Shown one piece after another: positions 18,400 through 22,321 of a DNA stretch of 33,319 bases (the first letter of the stretch is position 1; the number at the start of each line of letters is the position of its first letter). A program made the translations under genes and the position numbers. The notes beneath the pieces were generated by a model. It did no database searches. It had not been told where the DNA came from and saw only the letters and a program-made list of their open reading frames with translations. Location of the stretch: NCBI GenBank assembly GCA_025459195.1, contig JALORF010000033.1, positions 1 to 33,319 of the forward strand, written 5' to 3'. Origin of the DNA: Beijerinckiaceae bacterium (GTDB lineage Bacteria > Pseudomonadota > Alphaproteobacteria > Rhizobiales > Beijerinckiaceae).

Positions 18400-20010
18400 A
18401 TGGTCACCGTGATCGACACGCTCAACAAGACGCCCAAGCCGGCAGCACCGGCAGCTGCAGCAGTCGCCGCGCCGGTGGCTGCCCCGTCAGCCTCCGATGT
18501 CGCGGCGGCCACGCAAGCCGTGGCCAAGGCCGAGGTGCTCGGCAATGGCTGCCACGCCGGCCGCGACCAGATGCGCAAGGCGGCGGTGGCTGCGGGTGCA
18601 AGCGACACGCTGGAGCGCTACGCGGCGGATTATCCACTGGGTCCGCACGACCAGCCCCAGAGCATGTGTCCCGCTTTCGGCTCGCTGCGCGTCGGCCTGC
18701 GCATGCGCCGCACGGCCACGGTGCTGTCCGGCTCGGCCTGCTGCGTCTATGGCCTGACCTTCACCTCGCATTTCTATGGTGCGCGCCGCACGGTCGGCTA
18801 TGTGCCCTTCAATTCCGAGACACTGGTCACCGGCAAGCTGTTCGAGGACATCCGCGAGGCCGTGCATTTGCTGGCCGATCCCGAGCAATATGACACAGTG
18901 GTCGTCATCAACCTGTGCGTGCCGACGGCCTCCGGCGTGCCGCTGAGGCTGCTGCCCGACACCATTGATGGCGTGCGGATCATCGGCATCGATGTGCCCG
19001 GCTTCGGTGTGCCCACCCATGCCGAGGCCAAGGATGTGCTGGCCGGTGCGATGCTCAACTTCGCCCGCAAGGAAGCGGAGGCCGGCCCCGTCGCCGCTCC
19101 CCGTGGCGGCCGCAACGACAAGCGCACGGTGACGCTGCTCGGCGAGATGTTCCCGGCCGATCCGGTCGGCATCGGCATGATGCTCGGTGCCCTCGGGCTG
19201 GGGGCCGGCCCTGTGGTGCCCACGCGCGAGTGGCGTGAACTCTACGCTGCGCTCGATTGCGCGGCGGTCGCCGCCATCCACCCGTTCTACACCGCCTCGA
19301 TCCGCGAGTTCGAGGCCGCCGGCCGGCCGGTCGTCGGCTCCGCCCCGGTGGGCCATGACGGCACGGCGGCCTGGCTCGATGCCATTGGCGAGGCCTGCCA
19401 GGTGTCGAAGGCCACGGTGGATGCGGCCAAGGCGCAGTTCCTGCCGATGATCAGGGGCGCGCTGGCCGCCAAGCCGGTCAATGGCAAGATCACCGTGTCC
19501 GGCTATGAGGGCTCGGAACTGCTGGTGGCCCGGTTGCTGATCGAGAGCGGGGCCAGCGTGCCGTATGTCGGCACCGCCTGCCCGCGCACGCGCTGGTCCG
19601 ATCCGGATCGCCTATGGCTGGAAGCGCGCGGCGTTCACATCCAGTTCCGGGCCTCGCTGGAGAACGATCTGGCAGCGGTGGATTTCCACGAGCCTGATCT
19701 GGCCATCGGCACCACGCCGGTGGTGCAGCATGCCAAGGCGCGCGGCATGCCCTCGCTCTACTTCACCAACCTGATCTCCGCCCGCCCGCTGATGGGTGTC
19801 GCCGGGGCAGGCTCGCTGGCGCAGGTGGTCAACGCCGCCATGGCCAACAAGGCCCGCATGGACGAGATGCGCGACTTCTTCGAAGGGGTTGGCAGCGGCC
19901 ATGCTGCCGGCATCTGGGAAGACACGCCGCGTGATCGCCCGGAATTCCGCAAGAAGCAGCTCGCCAAGCTCGGCAAGACCGACATGGGCATGTCGGGGGA
20001 GATCCTCTGA
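18400..20010 (+). CDS. bchY: Chlorophyllide a reductase subunit Y
   Basis: [68 protein letters not shown]; NifD/BchN-like; follows bchX. Confidence 0.97.
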
Positions 20011-21500
20011 TGCTGGTCCTTGATCACGACAGGGCAGGGGGCTACTGGGGCGCGGTCTATGTGTTCTGCGCCGTCAAGGGCCTTCAGGTCATCATCGACG
20101 GACCGGTGGGGTGCGAGAACCTGCCCGTGACCTCGGTGCTGCATTACACCGATGCCTTGCCGCCTCACGAATTGCCGATCGTGGTCACCGGCCTGGCCGA
20201 GGAGGAACTCGGCCAGCATGGCACCGAAGGCGCAATGAAGCGCGCCCACAAAACGCTCGATCCCGGCCTGCCATCGGTGGTCGTGACCGGCTCGATTGCC
20301 GAGATGATCGGCGGCGGCGTGACCCCTGAAGGCACCAACATTCTTCGCTTCCTGCCGCGCACCATCGACGAGGACCAGTGGCAATGCGCCAACCGGGCGA
20401 TGGCCTGGCTGTGGAAGCAGTTTGGCCCGAAGAAGGCCCCTGCGCTCAAGCCCCGCAAGGAGGGCGCAAAGCCCAAGGTCAACATCATCGGGCCGATCTA
20501 TGGCACCTTCAACACCTGGTCTGACCTGGCCGAGATCCGCCGGTTGGTCGAGGGCATCGGCGCTGAGGTCAACCTCAGCTTTCCGCTCGGCACGCACCTC
20601 GCCGACATCAACAAGCTCGGCGATGCCGAGGTCAACATCTGCATGTACCGCGAGTATGGCCGGCTGCTCTGCGAGGCGCTGGACCGGCCCTACCTGCAGG
20701 CCCCCATCGGGCTGCACTCCACCACCAAGTTTCTGCGCAAGCTCGGCGAGCTGACCGGGCTTGATCCAGAGCCGTTCATTGCGCGCGAGAAGCACACCAC
20801 CATCAAGCCACTCTGGGATCTCTGGCGCTCGGTGACGCAGGATTTCTTCGCCACCGCTTCCTTCGCCATTGTCGCTAATGAAACCTACACGCGTGGCATC
20901 AAGCAGTTCCTTGAAGTCGAGATGGGGCTGCCCTGCACGTTTGCCGTATCGCGCAAGCCGGGCGAGAAGACGCTGAACGATCAGGTCCGTGACCTGGTCA
21001 AGACGCGCACGCCGCTGATCCTGTTCGGCAGCTACAACGAGCGCATGTATCTGGCCGAGGCGGGCGGCCGAGCCATCTACATCCCGGCCTCCTTCCCCGG
21101 CGCGATCATCCGGCGGCACACCGGCACCCCGTTCATGGGCTATGCCGGCGCGACCTATCTCGTCCAGGAGGTCTGCAACGCGCTGTTCGACGCGCTGTTC
21201 AACATCATTCCGCTGGCCACCGACATGGATGCGATCGAGGCCACGCCCTCGCGCCTGCATGAGGAGCTGCCATGGAGCGTGGAAGCCAAGGCCATGCTGG
21301 ACCGGGTGGTCGAGGAGCACCCGGTTCTGGTGCGCATCTCGGCGGCGAAGCGCCTGCGGGATGCCGCCGAACGCGATGCCAGGCCTGCGGGATGCCGCCG
21401 AACGCGATGCCAGACAGGCCGGATCGGACAGGGTCACCGAGTCCTCGGTGTCCCGCGCGCAAGGCACCCTGTCAGGCCGACAGCCGCGCTAAGCATCTAA
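20010..21500 (+). CDS. bchZ: Chlorophyllide a reductase subunit Z, C-terminus altered by tandem duplication
   Basis: [76 protein letters not shown]; overlaps bchY by one base. Tail after ...AAERDAR is frameshifted by a 31-bp duplication. Confidence 0.95.
21352..21413 (+). repeat. Perfect 31-bp tandem duplication in the bchZ 3' end
   Basis: GCCTGCGGGATGCCGCCGAACGCGATGCCAG at 21352-21382 and again at 21383-21413. Confidence 0.98.
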
Positions 21501-21629: not shown

Positions 21630-21864
21630 ATGACCGACATGCGACTTGAAATGCCCCGCTCCCGCGCCCGCAGCGATGACCGCTTCGCGTTCCGTCTGCT
21701 GGTGGCGCTGACCTATCTATCCGCTGTTTCTGGCCGCCGCGATCATCTCGCGGCTGGCACCGATCGGGCGCGGCCTGCTGGCCCGCCCCGAGGGCCGCGT
21801 CTCGATCTTTGCGCAGGCCCGCCGATCGAGCGAGGCCACCATCGCCTTCGCCTTCATGGGCTGA
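21630..21864 (+). pseudogene. pufQ: PufQ, frameshifted by a 4-bp CTAT tandem duplication
   Basis: N-terminal frame [29 protein letters not shown]; after (CTAT)2 at 21713-21720 the PufQ-like continuation [47 protein letters not shown] is in another frame. Removing one CTAT restores a 76-aa ORF. Confidence 0.85.
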
Positions 21865-21985
21865 AGGCGTCACCGAATCCTGCCCGGGCAACCGGACAGG
21901 CAGTCATCGTGGCTTCACGAGGACGATCCCAGCCGCGCGGGATGGGCGCGGTAACGGCTTCGGCCAGTATGAGGAGTGTCAGGTC

Positions 21986-22135
21986 ATGGCTGACAGAGAC
22001 AGGCAGTCCCTCACGGGACTGACAGAAGGTGAAGCACAGGAATTCCACAAGTTCATGATTCAGGGAACTTTGGGTTTCGGCGCTGTTTCACTGTTCGCCC
22101 ACATCCTGATCTGGATGTGGCGTCCTTGGTTCTGA
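21986..22135 (+). CDS. pufB: Light-harvesting 1 (LH1) beta subunit
   Basis: 49 aa [60 protein letters not shown] BChl-binding motif. Confidence 0.96.
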
Positions 22136-22168: not shown

Positions 22169-22321
22169 ATGTGGAGAATCTGGCTGATTTTCGATCCGCG
22201 CCGTTCGCTCGTTGCCGTCCTCGGCTTCTGCTTCGCGATGGTGCTCGTCAATCACTTCGTGCAGCTCAGCACGCCGCGTTACGGCAGCTGGCTCAGCGCA
22301 CCTGCGGTTGTGAAGAAGTAA
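22169..22321 (+). CDS. pufA: Light-harvesting 1 (LH1) alpha subunit
   Basis: 50 aa MWRIWLIFDPRRSLVAVLGFCFAMVLVNHFVQLSTPRYGSWLSAPAVVKK; GGAG RBS; absent from ORF track because of the size cutoff. Confidence 0.96.
   Translation: MWRIWLIFDPRRSLVAVLGFCFAMVLVNHFVQLSTPRYGSWLSAPAVVKK

Follow-up and report, generated by a model that had tools for sequence, protein, structure and literature searches.

The duplication of four bases that interrupts pufQ and a 31-bp duplication close by in bchZ are best explained as local assembly errors in a fragmented, apparently metagenome-derived genome, an explanation to which we assign a probability of about 0.75. In the organism itself, both BchZ and a 76-residue PufQ are most likely intact. 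An earlier note on this DNA had left four explanations for the broken pufQ side by side, namely a recent loss of function, phase variation, programmed frameshifting, and a sequencing or assembly error, and the last of these is now the best supported of the four, on the strength of other exact duplications and of a frame-breaking deletion in the same assembly. The stretch of DNA analysed, termed the window in the following, is a whole contig of 33,319 bp (C134), which is one of 253 contigs in a genome of 3.23 Mb.

Two frame-shifting duplications in the photosynthesis gene cluster

As written, the open reading frame that starts at position 21630 codes for 130 amino acids and ends at 22022 (21630..22022, plus strand), overrunning the start of pufB at 21986, just as the earlier note had described and as the open reading frame listing confirms. 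At 21713..21720 (plus strand) it reads CTATCTAT, an exact 4-bp tandem duplication resulting in a +1 frameshift, and the inference drawn from it, that a PufQ-like protein is split at this point, holds: a PufQ profile (A1) matches the window in two frames, at 21630-21716 and at 21718-21861. The N-terminal part in the original frame (residues 1-29; 21630..21716, plus strand) is supported by a profile match with E = 1e-6 and by the alignment with relatives, and the C-terminal part in the shifted frame (21718..21864, plus strand, ending with a TGA at 21862-21864) by a match to profile residues 29-76 with E = 9.4e-18 and by its constrained codons. In the relatives G033 and G030 the same profile is matched in a single frame over residues 1-76. 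The sequence CTATCTAT occurs only once in the window, with 0.09 occurrences expected by chance; doubled 4-mers are unremarkable when taken alone, since simple arithmetic predicts about 130 of them per 33 kb, and it is the homology to PufQ and not the repeat itself that makes the duplication significant. The whole array, CTATCTATC, consists of two units and spans 9 bp, with a junction homology of 1 bp.

On the basis of the puf region, metagenome-assembled genomes assigned to the same genus are the closest relatives. The comparison with close relatives that had been proposed as a check found pufQ intact in all five (75-76 codons), each with one CTAT-type unit (L001, L002, L003, L004 and L083 in the alignment), and the four extra bases are thus private to the window. 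Downstream of the duplication, pufQ differs from its counterpart in L003 by nine synonymous and three nonsynonymous changes over 48 codons.

The second lesion, which the earlier note had overlooked, lies about 300 bp upstream of the first at the 3' end of bchZ. It is a perfect 31-bp tandem duplication (21352..21413, plus strand; two copies, Tandem Repeats Finder score 124) that shifts the frame, shows no junction homology and is likewise private to the window, being absent from all five aligned relatives. The match of a relative's BchZ protein to the window runs to 21392 in one frame and resumes in another frame at 21385. In consequence, the bchZ gene as written (20010..21500, plus strand; 496 amino acids) has an altered C-terminus, in which the PCP_red domain match reaches 28.2 bits and so falls below the cut-off of 32.5 bits, as opposed to 39.8 bits in L003, whereas the body of the protein is intact and scores well above the BchZ family cut-off. 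Past the duplication, the tail differs from that of L003 by 12 synonymous and six nonsynonymous changes over 30 codons. In both genes the codons that follow the lesion still appear to be under constraint, and neither lesion is old.

Two further peculiarities of bchZ were observed. Around positions 20496-20528 there are five amino-acid differences within eleven residues from L003, which reads GPSYGNFNMPSDVAEI there, in a protein that is otherwise very similar, and the bchZ gene of the metagenome-assembled genome from Lac Pavin contains an exact 15-bp tandem repeat (L004:6718-6747) that probably adds five residues and is possibly a similar artefact.

When the remainder of the window was searched for frame disruptions, no further broken gene emerged, and, the bchZ tail aside, pufQ is the sole mid-sequence break in an otherwise intact photosynthesis cluster. 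The adjoining genes pufB (LH1 beta; 21986..22135, plus strand) and pufA (LH1 alpha; 22169..22321, plus strand) match NF040862 and NF040861, respectively, above cut-off. Neither a second intact pufQ nor a second bchZ was found in the genome, and runs of N, checked as a sign of scaffolding, occurred only as whole masked contigs.

The assignment of the interrupted gene as pufQ is suggested by its syntenic position and by similarity among the Hyphomicrobiales. In the window as in L001-L004 it is located between bchZ and pufB. The Pfam model PF05398 matched neither a protein of this genome nor the intact proteins of L003, L002 and L009, while it does detect the Rhodobacter-type locus L191, and searches of NCBIfam and Pfam returned no name for the Hyphomicrobiales PufQ. 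A profile comparison with a PF05398-type protein by hhalign gave a weak match, with a probability of 33%, that spans 32 columns in the region of the hydrophobic segment.

Comparable lesions elsewhere in the assembly

For this genome (G000), all exact two-copy tandem repeats were listed over a sample of about 830 kb, and for the sister genome G033 over 825 kb; those retained had a period of 15 bp or more and no more than 1 bp of junction homology. This left six duplications with periods of 17-76 bp in G000 and none in G033, a small count taken from chosen stretches of both genomes and not from whole genomes. All six lie within conserved genes as identified by family models. Besides the one in bchZ, they comprise an exact 76-bp duplication at the end of hisH (L243:13235, contig C13), an exact 32-bp duplication at the end of narH (L252:649, C148), an exact 17-bp duplication within the CCA tRNA nucleotidyltransferase gene cca, where the frame is lost (L245:5690, C16), an exact 23-bp duplication within an L,D-transpeptidase gene, where both of the split frames match the same family (L138:312, C22), and a 21-bp duplication in the lipoyl synthase gene lipA, which adds seven residues (GECWEKN) beside a cysteine motif (L147:4460, C52). 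In addition, 62 bp that are present in G033 are deleted from a molybdenum hydroxylase-like gene, which breaks the frame inside a molybdopterin-binding domain (L183:6833, C106); this deletion was the only candidate kept after inspection of the alignments from a tblastn screen for frame breaks, which produced many false matches to over-extended or antisense open reading frames.

The sister metagenome-assembled genome G030 likewise has a 16-bp insertion in bchX (C244, L113:17878-18684), which is an imperfect repeat of the adjacent bases, and lacks 81 bp of bchZ, and these lesions are comparable, as local errors, to those in the present assembly. The bchX insertion resembles two variants that have been joined.

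Origin of the duplications

That lesions of the same kind and of other lengths recur across unrelated conserved genes elsewhere in this assembly is the reason for favouring an artefact. Clean duplications in conserved genes are what local mis-assembly produces, and a single living lineage is unlikely to have gained so many of them recently in such genes. We infer that the duplications arose during assembly rather than in the cell, by the joining of overlapping pieces. Pieces whose overlaps ranged from a few bases to some tens of bases might have been joined with the overlap left uncollapsed, which would yield an exact two-copy tandem repeat and thereby a shift of the frame. A 4-bp overlap is, however, shorter than the length at which assemblers usually join, and the CTAT unit could therefore be a separate and genuine slippage mutation. 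Literature searches found no papers that name exact short tandem duplications from assembly as a class of artefact.

The alternative that comes next is a genuine and very recent loss, in which slipped-strand duplication of the four bases in this lineage left a truncated PufQ with about 29 native residues. The duplication is after all present in the record and private to the window, and the altered tail of bchZ could be taken to reflect relaxed selection on phototrophy. A loss would also be survivable by analogy with Rhodobacter sphaeroides, in which PufQ reduces the activity of ferrochelatase and so steers porphyrin towards bacteriochlorophyll, and in which the deletion of pufQ lowers bacteriochlorophyll to 6% of the wild type but can be suppressed by a change in ferrochelatase; moreover, some purple bacteria lack PufQ altogether (PMC5725709). 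By the same analogy, bacteriochlorophyll would drop in the present organism unless haem synthesis were dampened elsewhere. Against a genuine loss, the window shows every other gene of the cluster to be intact, the codons past the lesion show no decay, and equally clean duplications are found in genes such as lipA and cca, for which a loss of function would be unlikely. A recent loss as proposed in the earlier note accordingly keeps some plausibility but is not favoured, the cluster being intact save for the tail of bchZ. We regard a genuine recent loss of this kind as unlikely, and it is a little less likely again that PufQ has really been lost very recently from a photosynthesis cluster that is otherwise intact. 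Were the loss nevertheless true, it would provide a natural test of how haem and bacteriochlorophyll are balanced without PufQ, possibly via a changed ferrochelatase; the ferrochelatase gene (hemH) match in this genome has its 5' end cut off by the end of contig C7.

The two remaining proposals found no support. Phase variation, whereby slipped-strand mispairing at the CTAT repeat would toggle PufQ on and off, appears very improbable: in principle, a tandem 4-bp unit within a reading frame could gain and lose copies, but there are only two units in the window and a single one in each of the five aligned relatives, so that the copy number does not vary and no array is seen in any of them, whereas known contingency loci have longer repeat arrays. 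Programmed +1 frameshifting at the repeat, which would restore a full-length PufQ and for which it speaks that both frames are open and jointly encode a PufQ-like protein, can be considered even more remote, as there is no conserved shift site and the relatives encode PufQ uninterrupted in a single frame without such a site.

With assembly error as the preferred explanation, the disruption of pufQ should not be carried forward as a biological claim without reads. Exact short tandem duplications in this genome mimic frameshift mutations, and other apparent pseudogenes in it therefore need to be checked as well.

A conserved RNA element in the pufB leader

A useful by-product of the analysis of pufQ, worth a finding of its own, is a conserved candidate RNA element in the leader of pufB, located between pufQ and pufB and ending at the pufB start (21922..21985, plus strand). 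It consists of a first stem (GCCGYGC/GYRCGGY), a possible CCC/GGG pseudoknot with the loop of this stem, a second stem in the form of a GGCC hairpin with stable tetraloops, and the ribosome-binding site. Further copies are found, e.g., at L063:7832-7897, L069:7566-7631 and L042:7823-7885. In an alignment of 34 loci, 11 of the 14 proposed pairs change on both sides with pairing kept, values that none of 500 shuffles reached and that slid versions of the structure fell far short of, with the qualification that the structure was drawn from the same sequences on which it was tested, which somewhat favours it. The window copy folded as a single sequence is only modestly more stable than its shuffles (z = -1.35), and the support for the element is thus comparative.

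With a covariance model, the element was placed immediately upstream of pufB in the majority of the 80 loci collected, which include gamma- and betaproteobacterial metagenome-assembled genomes as well as one record titled Gemmatimonadetes (L073). When applied to 289 genomes of the class, the model matched 20 at E <= 0.001, and among the ten best matches the window's own copy is one of eight that immediately precede pufB, the two exceptions being among the weaker matches. Weak matches elsewhere fall in coding sequence. Genome G208 has, besides its match upstream of pufB, a weaker one directly upstream of pufQ (L262; G208:C122:40781-40846, minus strand). No match for the element was obtained from Rfam in the stretches searched, and literature searches found no description of it. 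Taken together, the sequence comparisons suggest a covarying RNA element that occurs across phototrophic Proteobacteria and Gemmatimonadota.

In Rhodobacter, cleavage by RNase E inside pufQ results in a more stable pufBALMX mRNA (PMC6238624), and on this account it is a reasonable guess that the element may serve in the protection or translation of pufBALMX-type mRNA. Should the element be confirmed, it would offer a testable component of the stabilisation or translation of LH1 mRNA, a question that has been studied mainly in Rhodobacter. If, on the other hand, the frameshift in pufQ were real, ribosomes would read through the element.

Comparison with known systems

With the simple-sequence contingency loci, the lesion in pufQ has in common a tandem 4-bp unit within a reading frame, but it differs from them in that there are two copies only and no array among the relatives. 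The protein in turn resembles the PufQ of Rhodobacter (PF05398) in the position of its gene between bchZ and pufB, in a length of about 75 residues, in a hydrophobic segment in the middle and in a similar C-terminal pattern, whereas it differs in that the Pfam model scores neither the intact nor the broken Hyphomicrobiales proteins, and in the weakness of the profile comparison. A further comparison is with the artefacts that short-read metagenome assemblies owe to uncollapsed overlaps and local mis-assembly. A 4-bp overlap would be short for such joins; the likeness lies in exact two-copy tandem repeats that vary in length and have little homology, if any, at their junctions, in the occurrence of short deletions, and in the fact that unrelated conserved genes of one and the same assembly are affected.
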